Assembly: GCA_017999915.1 (NCBI GenBank)
Contig: JAGNKX010000005.1
Span: 186,001 to 250,000, forward strand
From: Spirochaetota bacterium
Lineage (GTDB): Bacteria; Spirochaetota; UBA4802; UBA5550
Reading direction: 5' to 3'
Length of the DNA: 64,000 bases
Shown piece by piece: positions 1,915-10,033 of this stretch. Each line of letters begins with the position of its first letter. Position 1 is the first letter of the stretch. The notes below the pieces were generated by a model. That model was not told the origin of the DNA. It did not search any database and saw nothing but the letters and a program-made list of their open reading frames with translations. The position numbers and the translations under genes were made by a program.

Positions 1915-2072
1915 AATTTAAAAAAATGTTTGTATTTATGCAGATACCTCATTATTGTTGCTTTTTGCAAGAAGAAAACAGGCGCGCTGAAATATGCGCT
2001 CCCGCATCCCCGGCCCGCGCTGCCGGGGCCGGTCAGCGGCGCCGACAATCAACCATGACGTGGAGCTTTATT

Positions 2073-3068
2073 ATGCCAACTGCAAGATCAGCCCAGAAGA
2101 AAAAATCGACGGCAACCTATCTGTCCATCGTGCTGCCGGTCTACAACGAGCAGGACAACATCCGTCTCCAGTACGAGGAGATCATCAAGGCCCTGAAGCC
2201 GCTCAACGTCTCCTATGAAGTCATTTTCATCGATGACGGCAGCGCCGATTCTTCCCCGGAGATACTCCGCGACATCGCGAAAAACGACCGGAACATCAAG
2301 GTCGTCCTGTTCCGCCGCAATTTCGGCCAGACGGCGGCCATGTCGGCCGGCATCGATTACGCCTCGGGCGAGATCATCGTGTTCATGGATTCCGACCTCC
2401 AGAACGACCCGAAAGACATCGGCATGCTCTTCAGGAAGATCGAGGAGGGATACGACGTGGTAAGCGGCTGGCGGAAGAACAGGCAGGACAAGTTCCTGTC
2501 GCGGAAGCTCCCGTCGCGCATCGCCAACTGGCTCATCGCCAGGGTCACCGGCGTCAAGCTCCACGACCTGGGCTGCTCCCTCAAGGCGTACCGCAGCGAC
2601 CTGCTGAAGCAGGTCAACCTCTACGGCGAGATGCACCGCTTCATACCGGTGCACGCGTCCTGGATCGGCGCGAAGATCACGGAAGTCCCCGTCATGCACC
2701 ACGCGAGGAAGTACGGCAAATCGAAGTACGGCATCAAGCGCACCTTCAAGGTGATCCTGGACCTCATAACCGTCACCTTCATGGGCAAGTACTCGACCAA
2801 GCCGATCTACGTCTTCGGCGGCACGGGGTTCATCATGTTCGTCCTGAGCCTCCTCAGCGGGGCGGTGACCATCCTGATGAAGATCTTCCTCTACCAGCCC
2901 ATGAACAGGAACCCGCTCCTGATCCTCACGGTCATGCTCCTGCTCCTCTCCGTGCTGTTCATCCAGATCGGGATCCTCGCGGAGATCCTCATACGGATAT
3001 ACCACGAGTCCCAGAACAAGCAGCCCTACAACATCCTTGAGACGCACAACATCGTGAAGAAAAAATAA
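2073..3068 (+). CDS. Polyprenyl-phosphate glycosyltransferase, GT2 (DPM1/GtrB/ArnC type), membrane-anchored
   Basis: The N-terminal half is a GT-A fold: LSIVLPVYNEQDN nucleotide-binding start, VIFIDDGSADSS, then the metal-binding FMDSDLQNDP (DxD-like) and a QTAAMSAGID segment. The C-terminal part has two strongly hydrophobic segments (FGGTGFIMFVLSLLSG and LTVMLLLLSVLFIQIGIL), the layout of GtrB and ArnC, which move a sugar from a nucleotide donor to undecaprenyl phosphate on the inner face of the membrane. It would supply lipid-linked sugar for an envelope glycan or lipid A. Start chosen at 2073 because GGAG lies seven bases upstream; the longer frame from 1926 has no such site and a low-complexity leader. 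Confidence 0.88.
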   Translation: MPTARSAQKKKSTATYLSIVLPVYNEQDNIRLQYEEIIKALKPLNVSYEVIFIDDGSADSSPEILRDIAKNDRNIKVVLFRRNFGQTAAMSAGIDYASGEIIVFMDSDLQNDPKDIGMLFRKIEEGYDVVSGWRKNRQDKFLSRKLPSRIANWLIARVTGVKLHDLGCSLKAYRSDLLKQVNLYGEMHRFIPVHASWIGAKITEVPVMHHARKYGKSKYGIKRTFKVILDLITVTFMGKYSTKPIYVFGGTGFIMFVLSLLSGAVTILMKIFLYQPMNRNPLLILTVMLLLLSVLFIQIGILAEILIRIYHESQNKQPYNILETHNIVKKK

Positions 3069-3076
3069 CCCGGCGC

Positions 3077-3811
3077 CTACTGCTCCTTCTTGCCGCCGAA
3101 GAGGAATTTCATCGGGTTCCGCTTGATCTCGTTGGCCACCTCGTCCAGGGTCCGTGCGGTCTGGCGGATGCTGCCGATGATGTCGATGATGTCCTTCTGC
3201 GAGTTCTGCAGAATGTTGTTCAGGTTCGCGATGGTGCCGGCCAGGCTGCTGACGAGCTTGCGGATGTCGCCGCGGCTCTCCTGCGACACCTCGCGGTACA
3301 GGGTCACGATGCCGGTCACCTCGGTCAGGAGAGTGTTGACCTTGGCCATGATGTCCTCGATGCTGCCCGACTCGATCCCCTCGATGACATCCCCCTCGAG
3401 CAGGAAGGCCCCTTTCTTCTCCGGGTTACGCAGCTCCACCACGGGGTCGCCGATGACGTTCTGGTTTGTGATGATGGCGGCGCAGTCCTCGTACAGCTCA
3501 ATGTCCTTCTTGATGCGCAGGGTCGCGATGAAATGGAGGGCCGGCTTGAACAGGGGCTTCACGTCGACGACACGGCCCAGCTGGTAGCCCTTGATCTGGA
3601 CGGGCGTGCCCTTCTTGAGGGACGTGATGCTGTTCACCTTCACGTATACGTCCATGGTGGACGTCGACAGTGAATAGCCGAGCTTTATCAGGATGAAGAG
3701 CACGATGACGATCGCCGGTATGAGCACGAAGAGGCCCACCCGGTACTCGATCCGCCCGAGGCCCTGCCTCACCCTCGTGTATGCTTCCTTTCCCTTCAAT
3801 TGTAGTTTCAT
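3077..3811 (-). CDS. MCE-domain lipid-binding protein (MlaD-like)
   Basis: A 244-residue protein with one N-terminal membrane segment (VGLFVLIPAIVIVLFILI, about residues 25-42), then a single MCE/MlaD domain (VYVKVNSITSLKKGTPVQIKG ... NVIGDPVVELRN, about 54-130), then a helical tail with EDIMAKVNTLL and repeated leucine/isoleucine heptads. MlaD-type proteins form hexameric rings in the periplasm that pass lipids between inner and outer membrane. It is the last gene of a three-gene run (permease, ATPase-like, MCE), 11 bases after the ATPase-like gene, so the three should form one transporter. There is no MlaC or MlaA gene here. Confidence 0.9.
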   Translation of the reverse strand: MKLQLKGKEAYTRVRQGLGRIEYRVGLFVLIPAIVIVLFILIKLGYSLSTSTMDVYVKVNSITSLKKGTPVQIKGYQLGRVVDVKPLFKPALHFIATLRIKKDIELYEDCAAIITNQNVIGDPVVELRNPEKKGAFLLEGDVIEGIESGSIEDIMAKVNTLLTEVTGIVTLYREVSQESRGDIRKLVSSLAGTIANLNNILQNSQKDIIDIIGSIRQTARTLDEVANEIKRNPMKFLFGGKKEQ

Positions 3812-3822
3812 ACGCCCTCGCC

Positions 3823-4572
3823 TTAACGGATCTCCATGGGCCCTTCCATAGAGACGTCCCGGTACTGTACCAGATAGGGGTTATCCGATTCGAGGAATTC
3901 CCGGCGCGTCCCTGAGAAGACCATTCTTCCTTTATATAACATGCGGAATGTATCGGCAAAATCAAGAAATTTTTGCGGTTCATAGGTGACGAACACCACC
4001 GACTTTTCCGGGCTTGACACGCGATTTTTTAAAACGCCGAGGAAGGAGCGGATATTGAGGGGCGACAGGCCCGTGAAGGCGTGTTCGATGATCAGCAGCG
4101 AGGGATCATGGGCCACCGCCCTCCCGTAGGCGGTGCGGAAAATCTCCGACGCGGTGAGCGCCACCGGACGCGTCCCCCTGGCGTCGAGTATGTTCAGTTC
4201 CCTCATGAGGCGCTCGGTGATCCCCGAAATCTCCTCCGGGGAATAATCCGAGTAGTAATCGAGGCGCATGGCTATGTTCTGCTCCACGGTCATGTTCGAG
4301 ATGAGGCCATAATCGCCGTGAACATAGCCGATCTCGTTCTTGTAGCGCAGCTTCCCAAGGTAGTCGATGCCCTGTATCGTCGCGCCCCGGTACCGGATGT
4401 CGCCGCGGTAGATCTCCTCGATGTTCAGCATCAACTGCGTCAGCGTCCGCAGCCCCGACCGCTCCACGCCGAAAAAGACGATGTTCTCCCCCGCCCCTAT
4501 CGAGAAGGAGAGGTCCTCCACGGGATCGGCGGCGTCGCAGGTGACATTGATGAATTCCAGCAGGGGCTCCAT
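3823..4572 (-). CDS. MlaF-like ABC ATPase homologue with all catalytic motifs degenerate
   Basis: Overall it reads as a 249-residue MlaF-type ATP-binding subunit: the family frame is clear in IGYVHGDYGLISNMTVEQNI, in AYGRAVAHDPSLLII and in FADTFRMLYKGRMVFSGT. But every catalytic motif is changed. Walker A is GVERSGLRT (residues 35-43), without the invariant lysine. The Q-loop glutamine is glycine 86. The LSGGQ-type signature is LTASE (139-143). Walker B ends IIEH (161-164) instead of DE, and the switch histidine is tyrosine 197. It sits three bases after the MlaE-like permease and before the MCE gene. The reading frame is intact, so it is a conserved pseudo-ATPase rather than a decayed gene. 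It probably cannot hydrolyse ATP. Confidence 0.82.
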   Translation of the reverse strand: MEPLLEFINVTCDAADPVEDLSFSIGAGENIVFFGVERSGLRTLTQLMLNIEEIYRGDIRYRGATIQGIDYLGKLRYKNEIGYVHGDYGLISNMTVEQNIAMRLDYYSDYSPEEISGITERLMRELNILDARGTRPVALTASEIFRTAYGRAVAHDPSLLIIEHAFTGLSPLNIRSFLGVLKNRVSSPEKSVVFVTYEPQKFLDFADTFRMLYKGRMVFSGTRREFLESDNPYLVQYRDVSMEGPMEIR

Positions 4573-4575
4573 CGC

Positions 4576-5403
4576 CTACTCCATCCACGTGAAATAGAAA
4601 ACCACCGAGATGGCCGCATTCAGCAGGACGACGCAGAAAAGGGTGCGGCTCACGGCGCGGGACACGAAGATCGGGATCTCGAACTTGGACCGCGGCATCA
4701 GCCCGTAGTAGCAGCTGATCAGGGGAATGAGCAGGCCGAAGGCGAGGCTCTTGAGAATGGTGGCCACCAGGTCCTTCAGGGAAAAGGAGAGGACCAGGTT
4801 CTGGATGAACGTGTCCAGGGGGATGAATATCGTCGTGAGCGATATGATGTAGCCCCCCATGAACGCGACGATGTCAAAAAAGATGATGAGGGAAAAGATC
4901 GACAGTATGGACGCCGCGATCCGCGGTATGACGATGTAGAGGCGCGGGTCTATGCCCGAAATTTCCAGGGAAAGGATCTCCCTGCTCCACTGTTGCGTCG
5001 CGATCTCGGTGGCGATGGCCGTCCCCGACCGGCTTATCACGATGAGGGCCGTCACCAGGGGGCCCAGCTCGCGGGCGATGATGATGACCAGGAGGTTGCC
5101 GAAGTAGCCGTCGATGCCGTACTTCGGCAGGTTGGTCATGCCCTGGATGATGACCACGCCGCCCAGGAGCATGGCAATGACGATGATAAAGGGGAGCGCG
5201 TCGATGCCGGTGTACCTGGTCTGGTTCAGGATGATGCTGTTGAGCGCGCGAACGCGGATGAACCTGAGGGACTTGAAGGACTGGAAAATGGAATACACGT
5301 AGGCCCCGAAATCATGGACCCCGTCCCAGAAGCGCAGGACCCGCGCGCCCGTGGCGATCACCAGGGAGTGTTCCCGGATCGAGCTGTTCTGTTCGTCGGC
5401 CAT
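4576..5403 (-). CDS. MlaE-family ABC transporter permease
   Basis: Hydrophobic MlaE/YrbE-family permease with about five membrane segments. The family signatures are present: FIIVIAMLLGGVVIIQGM, the ARELGPLVTALIVISRSGTAIATEIAT block that forms the coupling region, and SREILSLEISGIDP. It should lie in the inner membrane and contact the ATPase-like subunit and the MCE ring. It is the first gene of the MCE operon; the ATPase-like gene follows after three bases. Start placed at 5403 (MADEQNSS), which has GGGAG ten bases upstream; an upstream ATG at 5442 would add 13 residues without a ribosome site. Confidence 0.9.
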   Translation of the reverse strand: MADEQNSSIREHSLVIATGARVLRFWDGVHDFGAYVYSIFQSFKSLRFIRVRALNSIILNQTRYTGIDALPFIIVIAMLLGGVVIIQGMTNLPKYGIDGYFGNLLVIIIARELGPLVTALIVISRSGTAIATEIATQQWSREILSLEISGIDPRLYIVIPRIAASILSIFSLIIFFDIVAFMGGYIISLTTIFIPLDTFIQNLVLSFSLKDLVATILKSLAFGLLIPLISCYYGLMPRSKFEIPIFVSRAVSRTLFCVVLLNAAISVVFYFTWME

Positions 5404-5525
5404 TATCGCACCGCTCCCGTTAATTTTTTCCGGCAGGGACATAGTATGGACGGGGACGATATTTTAATCAATAACAATTTGTGGCTGATGGCTCCTCGCG
5501 ATCAGGGAGCCATCTCGGTCATAAC

Positions 5526-5652
5526 ACCCTCACCCCCGGCCCCTCTCCCATTAAGAATTGAAAAAAGGAGAGGGTTAACGAAATATATGCTCTTTTCATC
5601 TCCCCTCTCCTTTTTTCAATTGTCATGAGAACGCGGGCCGGTGGGTGAGGGT
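5526..5652. repeat. Composite inverted-repeat element (MITE/REP-like), copy 1
   Basis: Outer arms ACCCTCACCC (5526-5535) and GGGTGAGGGT (5643-5652) are exact inverse repeats. An inner pair, AATTGAAAAAAGGAGAGGG (5556-5574) and its complement (5603-5621), can form a long hairpin. CCCGGCCCCTCTCCCA next to the left arm matches the element at 38028-38107 closely. It lies between the divergent MCE operon and the DUF362 gene. The rest of this 360-base gap shows no gene. Confidence 0.7.
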
Positions 5653-5764
5653 ACATACGCAGCACCCCTGCCTTAATACGAAAAACATTTTACAAATAGT
5701 TATTAGTTCTGTTAATGTGGAGCGGCAACAGGATATCACCATAACCGACGTAAAGGAGTATATA

Positions 5765-7420
5765 ATGGCGGAAATGAAAAGCTGTGTCGTAATTACCGAC
5801 GCCGAACCGATGGATTACACAAAAGACTACGTGGCCCTCCCCTCGGATTACGGCTCCGCCGCCTATTACGGCCGGAGCGACATCGCCGCCATAACCAAAA
5901 CCGTCCACGGCAGCCTTGACACCCTTGACAGGGAGACCGGGTTCACCAAGAAGCTCAAAGGCAAAAAGGCCCTGATCAAGCCGAACCTGGTGGGCACCTA
6001 TATTAAAATCGGGTTCCGCGAGAGGGAGTATCCGGAGAGCACCGACCCCAGGGTGATCGACGCGGTCGTGGATTATATCAGGAAGCACGCCGCCTCGGTG
6101 ACCATCGTGGAATCCTCGGGCCGCGGATTTCCCACCCGGGCCGCCTTCAAGATCACGGGAATAGACCGGATCGCGAAGCGCCACGGCGCCGAGCTCATGG
6201 CGCTGGAGGAGCAGCCGGTGGACCGCTACATCCTGCCGAAGGCGAAGGTGATGAAAGAGATCATCGTGCCCCGCATATTCAGCGAGGTGGCCCGCGGCGA
6301 GGCCTTCTATGTCTCGCTCCCCAAGATGAAGACGAACCTCTATACCGGCGTGACCCTGGGCTTCAAGAACGCCATGGGCACGATCCCCTACAACCTGCGG
6401 CAGCGCAACCACAACTATAATATAGAAGAAAAGCTGGTGGACATGCTCTGCCTTTTCAAGCCGGACCTCACCGTCATCGACGGCATCGTGGGGGCCGAGG
6501 GGAACTGCCCGGGCCCGGTCTTCCCGGTGAAAAGCAATGTCATCATCAGCGGCACCAACAGCGTCGAAGTGGACCGCGTCGCCACCGCCATGATGGGGAT
6601 CGACCCGTCATCGATAAAGCTGATGCAGTGCGCCGACGCCCGCGGCTTCGGCGATCGAAAAGTCAAGGTCATCGGCAGGCAGCGCAAGGTCCCCTTCAAG
6701 CAGGCCAATCCCTCGCTCCTGGACGATGATTTCCGCAGCCGCTTCCCCCTGGTCACCGTGCTGGTGGGCCACCGTATGAAGCACGCTCCCGTTCCCGGAA
6801 AGAATAAGAAAGCGGATGCCGCCTTCGCGCAGGAAATGGAGATGGCGTGCCGGGGCGGGTGCCTGGCAACGACCAAATTCGGCTTCGAGATGGTCTACCA
6901 TGAGGGCGTGGCGATGAAAAACCCCCTCACGGTGATCATCGGCGAGGGCGCCCTGGTGAACGGGAACGCCCTGTATTACGACAGGGACGGGAAGCCCTAT
7001 ACCCCGGAAGATATCGCCGCGCTTCCCGGCAAGATACTGGCGGTGGGCTCCTGCTCGGGGGCAGTCGCCGACATCGCCGACGCGCACTGCGACGGCTGCA
7101 TGCCTTTCCCCAACACGCCGCACATACTCATCCACAAGCTGACGGGGTCGCGGTGCCGCATCATGGGGCCGGCCAACCGCCAGCTCTTCACGATAGCGGG
7201 GGGCCTCCTGGCGATGACGATGGCGCGCAAGAAGCTCATCCGCTCCGGCCAGCGGCTCGACTGCGAGCTCCCGCTGCGGGACGAACTGGAGGACACGCCC
7301 GGGCTGAGCGCGGCAGACAAAAAGGAGGATTTCGTGCCGTGGCCCTTCCCGCCCCTGAGCAATGAGGAAAAAAAGCAGCTCATCAAGTTCGAAAATTACA
7401 TGATGATGAAGGATTTTTGA
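5765..7420 (+). CDS. DUF362 domain-containing protein
   Basis: A 551-residue soluble protein. The N-terminal half matches DUF362: KGKKALIKPNLVGTY, VTIVESSGRGFPTRAAFKITGI, then FYVSLPKMKTNLYTGVTLGFKNAMGTIP, and SGTNSVEVDRVATAMMGID. The family is found mainly in anaerobes, often fused to ferredoxin domains, and its biochemistry is not settled. Here no ferredoxin motif is seen; instead there is a C-terminal extension with a GSCSGAVADIADAHCDGCMPFPN segment whose cysteines could bind metal. The frame is open from 5645 but ATG 5765 has an excellent AAAGGAG six bases upstream, so that start is used. It is transcribed alone; the gene after it is convergent. Confidence 0.8.
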   Translation: MAEMKSCVVITDAEPMDYTKDYVALPSDYGSAAYYGRSDIAAITKTVHGSLDTLDRETGFTKKLKGKKALIKPNLVGTYIKIGFREREYPESTDPRVIDAVVDYIRKHAASVTIVESSGRGFPTRAAFKITGIDRIAKRHGAELMALEEQPVDRYILPKAKVMKEIIVPRIFSEVARGEAFYVSLPKMKTNLYTGVTLGFKNAMGTIPYNLRQRNHNYNIEEKLVDMLCLFKPDLTVIDGIVGAEGNCPGPVFPVKSNVIISGTNSVEVDRVATAMMGIDPSSIKLMQCADARGFGDRKVKVIGRQRKVPFKQANPSLLDDDFRSRFPLVTVLVGHRMKHAPVPGKNKKADAAFAQEMEMACRGGCLATTKFGFEMVYHEGVAMKNPLTVIIGEGALVNGNALYYDRDGKPYTPEDIAALPGKILAVGSCSGAVADIADAHCDGCMPFPNTPHILIHKLTGSRCRIMGPANRQLFTIAGGLLAMTMARKKLIRSGQRLDCELPLRDELEDTPGLSAADKKEDFVPWPFPPLSNEEKKQLIKFENYMMMKDF

Positions 7421-7430
7421 TCTTTCGCCG

Positions 7431-8537
7431 TTATTGTTCCGCCCTTCCGCGGTCGGTTTCCGCCAGCAGGTAGATGAAGCGCTCCAAAACCTGGATGACG
7501 ACGATATCCGGTTTGCAGCGGTTGATTATCGCTTCATCGGCCCTGTAATCCCACAGCGTATAGGTTTCCTTGAAATTGTATGAAATATAAGTGAAATAAT
7601 CGAAAAAGGAATCGTGAAGGATCAGAAGGGAGGGACCGCCGAGGCCGGTCCGGTAATGCCGTAATTCCATATACTGGTTATGGTAGGGATTGAATACCCG
7701 ATAATCCGAGGGAACCGTGTCACGGCGCGCTGGTTTTGCCGGCGTCAGCACATCGACGGTTTTTTCATAATAATCGAACAGGGTTATGATCTTGGCGATG
7801 TCGCCGCCGTTCGCCGATTTTTCATCGTATGCCATTCTCTTAACCGTAAAATCATCGAGCTCAAAGGGACGCACGGACGGGAAACGCTCGCGAATCGCCA
7901 TCATCAACTCGCGGTAACCCTTGTAGGCGCCGTAATAGTTCCAGTGGGTGTCGGCCTTCTGATACAGCCGGCGCCGCTTTTTTTCTTTTAGAACGGCCTG
8001 GCGGATATCGACGACCCGGATGCCCCCCGCTTCAGCGCAGATTCTCTTTAACTGCTCGACGCGCCTGCCGGAGGGATTCACCACCGTTACGTAATCGGGC
8101 AGATATTCGGGATAGATCGTCGACTTGTTGGGCGTGATCAACACGTAGAACGGGATATTCTTCGACTTCAGCAGCGACGACGCCTCCGAGAGATAGGCCC
8201 TGATCCTCTCCGTCTGCGCGCCGCTCAGGGGGGCCATGCCCCTGTGATCATCGATCTCGCACTCCGGGCCATGGAAACGCTCCGTTGTCATGACCGCTTC
8301 GGGTTTCAGGAAAAGCCATCCCTCTTTTCCGGGTACGACGTAGTTCACCGGCGACGCGTTGAAGATCGTTATTTTCATCAGGCTGTTCAGCTTCATCAGG
8401 TCTTTGCGGAACAGAAAGTTTTTCCGGAAATCCTTGAAATCGAGCCCTTTCTCAACCGGCATGAAGCCGACGGGGATGACCAGGCCGATACAGAAAACGG
8501 CGCACAATATGGTCTTGTATATCCTTGGTATGCTCAT
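7431..8537 (-). CDS. AlgX/AlgJ-type SGNH acetyltransferase-like protein
   Basis: An N-terminal membrane anchor (ILCAVFCIGLVIPVGFM) is followed by a periplasmic domain of the AlgJ/AlgX family: GKEGWLFL near residue 70, the ADTHWNYYGAY motif with the catalytic Asp-x-His (196-198), and LLILHDSFFDYF with the probable nucleophilic serine 310. These proteins transfer acetyl groups to exopolysaccharide or other envelope polymers, receiving them through an MBOAT membrane protein. The MBOAT gene lies immediately upstream on the same strand, a typical pair. The start is at 8537, with GGGGAG ten bases upstream; ATG 8564 is also possible. A much longer open frame reaches 8921 but only by reading through the MBOAT gene out of frame. 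Confidence 0.85.
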   Translation of the reverse strand: MSIPRIYKTILCAVFCIGLVIPVGFMPVEKGLDFKDFRKNFLFRKDLMKLNSLMKITIFNASPVNYVVPGKEGWLFLKPEAVMTTERFHGPECEIDDHRGMAPLSGAQTERIRAYLSEASSLLKSKNIPFYVLITPNKSTIYPEYLPDYVTVVNPSGRRVEQLKRICAEAGGIRVVDIRQAVLKEKKRRRLYQKADTHWNYYGAYKGYRELMMAIRERFPSVRPFELDDFTVKRMAYDEKSANGGDIAKIITLFDYYEKTVDVLTPAKPARRDTVPSDYRVFNPYHNQYMELRHYRTGLGGPSLLILHDSFFDYFTYISYNFKETYTLWDYRADEAIINRCKPDIVVIQVLERFIYLLAETDRGRAEQ

Positions 8538-8575: not shown

Positions 8576-10033
8576 TCAGAACCGCGAGTATATGAAGGGG
8601 CTGTAGGTCCCCCCCGCCATGGCCATGACGGAATAAAGAAAAATCGAAAGCAGCAGCGCCAATCCGCCGATGGCGAAGCCGTGTTTCGCAACGGCGCCGA
8701 GGGCGGAATTGCCGATGCGCGATATGCCCTCCCTGATCCTGTTTTCTAACCACGGCGCGATGGGCGTGGAAAAAAGCAGGGCCGCGGCCAGGGCGAATAT
8801 GACCTCGCCGGTCAGGTACATGGCGGGGAAATAGCTGCCATTGTGAAGGCCGTTGAAGCCGGCCATGGATTTCAGGTACGTGAAGGCGCCTCCGATGTCC
8901 GCCGATCTGAAGAAGACCCACCCGATCATGACAACCAGAAGGGCATAGCCATGGCGCAGGGGCCTGGCGCTTCTATTGATGATATCTCCGAGGCGCGTCC
9001 TCTCCACGAGCTGGAATAGGCCGTGCCAGAGGCCCCACACGATGAACGTCCAGTTGGCGCCGTGCCACAAACCGGTAAGGATAAATACGATCATGATGTT
9101 CATGAAAGTGTTGGCTTTGGACTGCCGGTTCCCGCCCAGGGGAATGTATACATAATCCCTGAACCAGGCGGACAGGGTGATATGCCATCGCCGCCAGAAT
9201 TCGCGCATCGACTGCGAGATATAGGGATAATTGAAATTCTCCGTCAGGGTGAAACCGAGCATGCCGGCGACCCCGATGGCCATGTCCGTATACCCTGAAA
9301 AATCAAAGAAGAGCTGGAACGTGTAGCATATGACGCCCAGCCACGCGACCTCGCAGGAGAGAAGATCCGGGGCGATGGCGAAGACCTGGTTCGCCACATT
9401 GCCCAGGGCCGTGGCTATTATCATTTTTTTCCCGAGTCCGATGATGAAGCGCCGTATCCCCTGTGTGAATCCGTCAAGGGTGATCTGCCTCCGCGCAAGC
9501 TGCCCGGCGATAACATCATACCTCATAATGGGACCGGACACGATCTGCGGAAACATTGTTATATAGAGTGATGTCTCCAGGGGGTTGTCATTGGCCCGGG
9601 AGTCCCGGCGATAGACATCGACGAGGTACGACAGTGTCTGGAACGTAAAAAAGGATATCCCTATGGGGATGTGCAGGGGCTTGATCAGGATCGGTGAAAC
9701 CTCGATCAGCGGCAGCACCGCGTTGAGATTGGCGACGATGAAGGCCGTGTACTTGAAAAAGGCCAGCATTCCCACGTTGACGATGATCGCGACGGTGATT
9801 ATCCGTCTTGCCAGGCGCGGCTTTCCGCCGTTACGGCCGATCATGCGGGCGAAGCCGTAATTCATCAGCGCCGAGGCGACCAGCAGGATCACATAGTATT
9901 TCTCTCCCAGGGCGTAGAAGACAAGGCTTGCCGCGAGCAACAGGGGATTGCGCCACTCCTTTTTTATAACGGTGTTGAGCGCCAGTACGATGGGAAGAAA
10001 AATGAAGAGAAAATCTACGGAATTAAATGCCAT
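8576..10033 (-). CDS. MBOAT family O-acyltransferase (AlgI/DltB type)
   Basis: A 485-residue polytopic membrane protein with the MBOAT landmarks in order: ISFFTFQTLSYLVDVYRR, FDFSGYTDMAIGVAGMLGF, REFWRRWHITLSAWFRDYVYIPLGGNR, and LTGLWHGANWTFIVWG. Both conserved histidines (RRWHI and LWHG, the second being the catalytic one in DltB) are kept. It moves an acyl group, usually acetyl, across the inner membrane for transfer to a polymer by the SGNH partner. That partner follows in the same direction, so the two should be one operon. A second, separate MBOAT cassette lies at 18665-21195. Confidence 0.93.
   Translation of the reverse strand: MAFNSVDFLFIFLPIVLALNTVIKKEWRNPLLLAASLVFYALGEKYYVILLVASALMNYGFARMIGRNGGKPRLARRIITVAIIVNVGMLAFFKYTAFIVANLNAVLPLIEVSPILIKPLHIPIGISFFTFQTLSYLVDVYRRDSRANDNPLETSLYITMFPQIVSGPIMRYDVIAGQLARRQITLDGFTQGIRRFIIGLGKKMIIATALGNVANQVFAIAPDLLSCEVAWLGVICYTFQLFFDFSGYTDMAIGVAGMLGFTLTENFNYPYISQSMREFWRRWHITLSAWFRDYVYIPLGGNRQSKANTFMNIMIVFILTGLWHGANWTFIVWGLWHGLFQLVERTRLGDIINRSARPLRHGYALLVVMIGWVFFRSADIGGAFTYLKSMAGFNGLHNGSYFPAMYLTGEVIFALAAALLFSTPIAPWLENRIREGISRIGNSALGAVAKHGFAIGGLALLLSIFLYSVMAMAGGTYSPFIYSRF

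Follow-up and report, generated by a model that had tools for sequence, protein, structure and literature searches.

A conserved MlaF-like subunit with a replaced ATP site in an MCE lipid-transport operon of a spirochaete order

The operon and its genes

The window analysed here is a 64,000-nucleotide stretch of DNA from a Spirochaetota bacterium. It contains a three-gene operon on the minus strand, in which an MlaE permease, an MlaF-like subunit (pseudo-MlaF) and an MCE protein are encoded in this order with intergenic gaps of 3 and 11 bases:

4576-5442, minus strand: MlaE-type permease, 288 aa, operon gene 1 (PF02405 at 6.3e-53; family comparison)
3823-4572, minus strand: pseudo-MlaF, ABC-ATPase-like subunit, 249 aa (open reading frame; ABC_tran; MlaF relatives in the PDB; structural Z of about 30; orthologues in 42 genomes)
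3077-3811, minus strand: MCE (MlaD-domain) protein, 244 aa, operon gene 3 (PF02470 at 2.6e-11; synteny)

A first-pass annotation of the locus had described the ATPase gene as free of stops and frameshifts, without giving its strand, and the permease and MCE subunits as normal in appearance. Both statements hold. Pseudo-MlaF is a single unbroken frame of 249 aa on the minus strand and matches Pfam ABC_tran at 1.3e-8; a plus-strand reading of the same interval is ruled out by four stops. The two partner proteins are ordinary members of the Pfam families PF02405 and PF02470.

The genes on either side of the operon have the opposite orientation and encode a GT2 glycosyltransferase (1926-3068) and a DUF362 protein (5645-7420). 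The glycosyltransferase is ArnC/PgfS-like and is accompanied by a 2-hydroxyglutaryl-CoA dehydratase-like gene at 772-1914. A similar pair (7434-8444 and 8599-9693) is found beside the operon in the distant member L058. Since the two genes flank the operon in both cases, they may be functionally linked to it.

State of the former ATP site

The positions at which a functional MlaF carries its ATP-site motifs are occupied in pseudo-MlaF as follows:

4444-4470, minus strand: former Walker A (P-loop), residues 35-43, GVERSGLRT (canonical GxxGxGK[ST]); Lys replaced by Leu41
4303-4329, minus strand: former Q-loop region, residues 82-90, GYVHGDYGL; Gln replaced by Gly86, preceded by His85
4144-4158, minus strand: former ABC signature, residues 139-143, LTASE (canonical LSGGM/Q)
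4081-4098, minus strand: former Walker B, residues 159-164, LLIIEH (canonical hhhhDE); Asp-Glu replaced by Glu163-His164
4060-4071, minus strand: former D-loop, residues 168-171, GLSP; Asp replaced by Ser170
3982-3984, minus strand: former switch His, replaced by Tyr197

Replacement of the Walker A Lys, the Q-loop Gln, the LSGG signature, the Walker B Asp-Glu pair and the switch His had been claimed from the sequence of the window, and it was reproduced in full by alignment with MlaF; the D-loop Asp is replaced too. In an hmmsearch with the family profile, the best solved relatives were MlaF structures (7d06, 6z5u, 7cgn, 6xbd), and the two best PDB matches aligned with the profile over 246 gap-free columns, so that the positions of the motifs in pseudo-MlaF are fixed. 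The AlphaFold single-chain model has an ABC fold with a mean pLDDT of 91.3. It superposes on the MlaF chains of P. aeruginosa, E. coli and A. baumannii with Z of about 28-31 (other ABC subunits give similar Z), and this also argues that the motifs are not misplaced. Misplacement, which the first-pass annotation had raised against its own finding, is thus rejected both by the alignment to solved MlaF, with its identical motif placement, and by the model.

The Q-loop calls for one qualification. A Gln lies one residue before the Q-loop position in 25 of 42 relatives, where the window has His85; judged from the alignment, a shifted Q-loop Gln is possible in these relatives and not in the window. 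As far as sequence can tell, the evidence for a dead ATP site in pseudo-MlaF is strong. The K47A and E170Q variants of E. coli MlaF each fail to complement (PMC7367683). Both residues being needed there, a protein with neither of them should not power transport.

Conservation across the order

Forty-six genomes of the order to which the window belongs were examined, and 393 spirochaete genomes were searched in all. An orthologue of pseudo-MlaF was found in 42 of the 46 genomes, with all seven families represented. The motif table consists of 42 full-length rows, two of them contributed by the genome G045; the partial copy of G013, likewise without the Lys, was left out. The Walker A Lys occurs in none of the 42 rows, and Glu37 and Gly40 of the P-loop occur in all of them. 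The P-loop of the order can therefore be written GxEx[SA]G, with a following residue that is never Lys. Glu37 is furthermore invariant across all full-length members of both the order and the sister clade described below. The Walker B position is occupied by Glu163 in 40/42 rows and by His164 in 39/42, and the signature position by Ser142 in 38/42 and Glu143 in 36/42. The switch position has Tyr197 in 36/42 rows of the order and in 13/13 of the sister clade, with His kept in 2/42; D-loop position 170 is Cys in 29/42 and 13/13, respectively. Rare exceptions of this kind aside, the LSGG signature, the Q-loop Gln and the switch His are absent across the order. For comparison, 26 rows of canonical MlaF from the same phylum, chosen by the [LI]SGGM signature, have the Walker A Lys, the Q-loop Gln and the switch His in 26/26.

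The ratio of non-synonymous to synonymous substitutions (NG86, window against genus) was 0.14-0.30 for pseudo-MlaF, 0.18-0.30 for the permease and 0.14-0.25 for the MCE gene. On this estimate, pseudo-MlaF is under purifying selection within the genus. The intact frame, the low ratio and the conserved replacement residues reject the pseudogene reading, in agreement with the initial view that the gene is not decaying. A recent loss of the ATP site, which would have left intact motifs in the relatives, is rejected in the same way by the absence of the Walker A Lys throughout the order (42 of 46 genomes carrying the orthologue); both clades, moreover, lack LSGG and the Asp-Glu pair.

The strong conservation of the replacement residues could also arise if Glu37, Glu163 and His164 formed a different catalytic site with an unusual mode of hydrolysis. 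This is highly improbable. We know of no P-loop enzyme with Glu at that place of the P-loop and without Lys, and no comparable case was found in the literature searched.

Two genomes of the order deviate in their copies. The orthologue of G013 (L034:2258-2944) lacks a stretch after about residue 187, through either an assembly error or a real deletion. G045, from another family than the window, has two copies of the operon (C242 and C254; L029, L182), one of which is nearest to the genus of the window; bin contamination or transfer is a possible source of the two copies.

Sister clade and origin of the loss

Among the 393 spirochaete genomes, members at E <= 1e-42 were confined to the 42 genomes of the order and 13 genomes from two other families. 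In this 13-genome sister clade, pseudo-MlaF has an MCE gene in its vicinity, and the permease is encoded elsewhere in the genome. As no ATPase lies beside that permease, the clade could be taken to have an ATPase-free system; this was rejected when the genome-wide search found pseudo-MlaF beside the MCE gene. Like the order, the sister clade has Glu in the P-loop, SE in the signature, Cys in the D-loop and Tyr in place of the switch His; it is without the Asp-Glu pair and keeps the Walker A Lys in 12/13. In the tree, with its root drawn at the midpoint, the two clades are joined with support of 100/100; the rows of the order are held together at 100/99 and the 13 sister rows at 100/96. The simplest reading of these sequences is that most of the ATP site was lost in a common ancestor of both clades, and that the Lys would have been lost later, on the stem of the window's order.

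The search beyond spirochaetes was made with peptide patterns of the window protein in one sequence collection. Three members, all from metagenome bins of spirochaetes (L056-L058), were recovered; the other matches had identities of 30% or less and were used solely as distant ABC rows.

The Lys retained in 12/13 of the sister clade, together with the ABC fold retained in the model, would agree with a regulatory role in which pseudo-MlaF binds but does not hydrolyse a nucleotide and switches the transporter open or closed accordingly. Degenerate sites in ABC exporters frequently bind ATP and serve as a hinge (PMC7756269). However, these sites belong to transporters whose other site works, and all 42 rows of the order lack the Lys and carry a P-loop Glu that should repel phosphates. 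A nucleotide-sensing regulator is hence unlikely.

Partnership with the permease and MCE genes

The type of permease encoded in the operon occurs in the same 42 genomes as pseudo-MlaF, and both are absent from the remaining four (G002, G021, G029, G030). Pseudo-MlaF adjoins the permease gene in 41 of the 42 genomes. An MCE gene follows the pair directly in 36 genomes; the contig ends there in G024 and G036, and no MCE gene was found beside the pair in G022, G031 and G035. In G008, the permease and MCE genes lie together without an ATPase between them, and pseudo-MlaF is found alone elsewhere, intact and with the same kind of residues.

At the scale of the order, the permease is the most conserved of the three genes: sequences from outside the genus are about 55-67% identical to the window's permease and 35-51% identical to its pseudo-MlaF. 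One feature of the permease was placed by family comparison:

4948-5007, minus strand: putative coupling helix of the permease, residues 146-165; Glu146, Glu155, Glu160 and Gly163 kept

All type-A permeases of the two clades carry Gln at position 150, where 97-100% of other MlaE have Met. The change could be explained by one shared ancestor and is therefore only suggestive.

An operon that has left transport, with the permease, the pseudo-ATPase and the MCE protein serving as an envelope scaffold or tether, would explain why all transport-driving residues are gone from the ATPase. Furthermore, no member of the MlaA or MlaC families was detected in the genome. The conservation of the permease, in which the core residues common to MlaE are kept, makes this explanation very unlikely.

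Intact MlaF elsewhere in the genome

A search for a second, intact mlaF gene, proposed in the first-pass annotation, found one at an unlinked position (G000:C16:36282-37010). Its motifs are GKNGCGKSV, LSGGMQKRV, DDPTAGLDP and THD. It lies apart from a second MlaE (C11) and a second MCE protein (C1), which are also apart from each other. The protein ends at ...EGPIDIF and, like pseudo-MlaF, is without the C-terminal handshake helix of the E. coli type. Intact MlaF is also present in genomes without pseudo-MlaF (G021, L256; G030, L258).

Such a protein could supply ATP energy to the operon, either by pairing with pseudo-MlaF in a mixed dimer or by replacing it on the permease. The single intact gene is indeed unlinked from its likely partners (C16 versus C11 and C1). 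In an ABC dimer, however, each ATP site combines the Walker A and B motifs of one subunit with the signature of its partner. In a mixed dimer both sites would be incomplete, because pseudo-MlaF has neither the Walker nor the signature halves. The permease of the operon occurs only where pseudo-MlaF does (both in 42 genomes, neither in four), and the presence of intact MlaF in G021 and G030 means that the intact subunit does not depend on pseudo-MlaF. Where the permease lies apart from pseudo-MlaF, in G008 and in the sister clade, no intact ATPase was found next to it. A borrowed motor is therefore distinctly unlikely, even with the precedent of one MceG shared by several mycobacterial Mce transporters (PMC9947336).

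Several other variants of MlaF were observed in the course of the comparison. In this genome and its relatives, Walker B of the intact MlaF reads Asp-Asp for Asp-Glu, the catalytic Glu being replaced by Asp (L140:4277-5032; L256, L258, L261, L264, L266, L268, L269). A genome of the same genus as the window has a second MlaE locus with a different ABC subunit, followed by an MCE-like gene (L143:5567-6361, G005:C46). This subunit is without the Walker A Lys (GGFKASSLIR) and without the signature (VPPEYQKR), keeps the Walker B DEP and possibly represents a separate, partial loss. Another group of spirochaete MlaF (L145, L146, L148-L152, L213-L239) retains Lys in Walker A and Asp in Walker B and has an altered signature (LS[IMT]G[EQ]RK and similar), often with no switch His; it forms its own group in the tree with support of 88/84.

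Proposed function of pseudo-MlaF

The preferred reading, to which a probability of roughly two in three can be given, is that pseudo-MlaF has been maintained as a pseudo-ATPase and serves to dock on, stabilise or gate the permease, so that the operon's own ABC subunit does not power lipid movement. Among passive operation, a borrowed ATPase and a scaffold, the options first put forward for this locus, the evidence favours a scaffold or gate without ATP use of its own.

Pseudo-MlaF keeps the ABC fold with its ATP sites swapped for fixed alternative residues, and the acidic Glu37 lies inside the P-loop, where the nucleotide phosphates would sit. We infer the transport mechanism as follows. Two pseudo-MlaF subunits would clamp two permease subunits and stabilise or gate them. 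Lipids would then follow their own gradient, or draw on outside energy, to pass between inner membrane and MCE channel without ATP hydrolysis by pseudo-MlaF, and the ATP-driven route would be left to the separate intact MlaF and the second MlaE and MCE genes. The transfer of lipid from MlaD to MlaC has been reported to be spontaneous.

A point against a simple scaffold comes from M. tuberculosis, whose Mce transporters were not stabilised by MceG carrying Walker B mutations (PMC9947336). A dead ATPase is thus insufficient as a scaffold in that system, and a dedicated pseudo-ATPase would need to have evolved this ability. Pseudo-MlaF must accordingly differ from a merely mutated ATPase, and fixed new residues would be the trace to be expected. 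The absent E. coli-type handshake helix also counts against the preferred reading, although the intact MlaF of the genome has the same kind of C-terminal end.

A more specific form of the preferred reading, for which the odds are about even, is that pseudo-MlaF, as the only motor of the transporter, forms a homodimer that lacks an active site and in which conserved protein contacts take over from ATP in holding the subunits together; the transporter would move lipids across the envelope without ATP, beside a normal ATP-driven copy in the same cell. In one such contact, Glu37 in the P-loop might face, across the dimer, the conserved Arg135 that neighbours the signature in the opposite subunit. 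Arg135 is found in 41/42 rows of the order, in 13/13 of the sister clade and also in 19 of about 27 rows of the Lys-retaining "relaxed" spirochaete group. As this Arg is not specific to the dead clade, the reciprocal Glu37-Arg135 latch is only a suggestion.

Comparison with known systems

Pseudo-MlaF resembles the MlaF of the MlaFEDB systems of E. coli, A. baumannii and P. aeruginosa in its full-length alignment, its structural Z values and its ...GP[MIV] end segment, and it is likewise encoded with MlaE and an MCE gene. It differs in having all catalytic motifs replaced, in missing the C-terminal handshake helix of E. coli MlaF and in belonging to a genome without a detected MlaA or MlaC family. 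The Mla system of Veillonella parvula (MlaEFD only) is also a minimal permease-ATPase-MCE operon without MlaA and MlaC.

The MCE lipid systems PqiABC and LetAB lack their own ABC ATPase. They use an unrelated inner-membrane protein (PqiA/LetA), whereas the operon of the window keeps an MlaE permease and an ABC-fold subunit; the parts of PqiABC are given in PMC10897342. MceG of mycobacterial Mce1/Mce4 is likewise the ABC subunit of an MCE lipid transporter and sets a precedent for separate locations of the ATPase and permease genes. Unlike pseudo-MlaF, it has intact motifs, and it depends on its Walker B residues for a stable complex as well as for transport (PMC9947336).

Heterodimeric ABC transporters with one degenerate site, such as TAP, TM287/288, TmrAB and Pdr5, also maintain a nucleotide-binding domain without consensus catalytic residues, but one of their sites stays active. 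The operon of the window contains no second ATPase, and a single intact MlaF lies elsewhere in the genome. As every motif is lost in the only ABC subunit of the operon, a pseudo-MlaF homodimer would have no consensus site at all. The open-licence literature searched yielded no account of an MCE or ABC system in which the only ABC subunit is a pseudo-ATPase. To our knowledge, an ABC operon like this one, with no consensus site in its single nucleotide-binding subunit, would be unusual.

Significance

The need for ATP in each direction of lipid movement in Mla-type systems is debated. An order-wide combination of a permease and an MCE channel with a fixed dead motor is a natural experiment on this need. 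Since the sister clade keeps part of the site, steps by which an ABC transporter can lose its motor are still visible. The replaced and strictly conserved motor site of this spirochaete order suggests a lipid machine that runs without ATP through its own motor.
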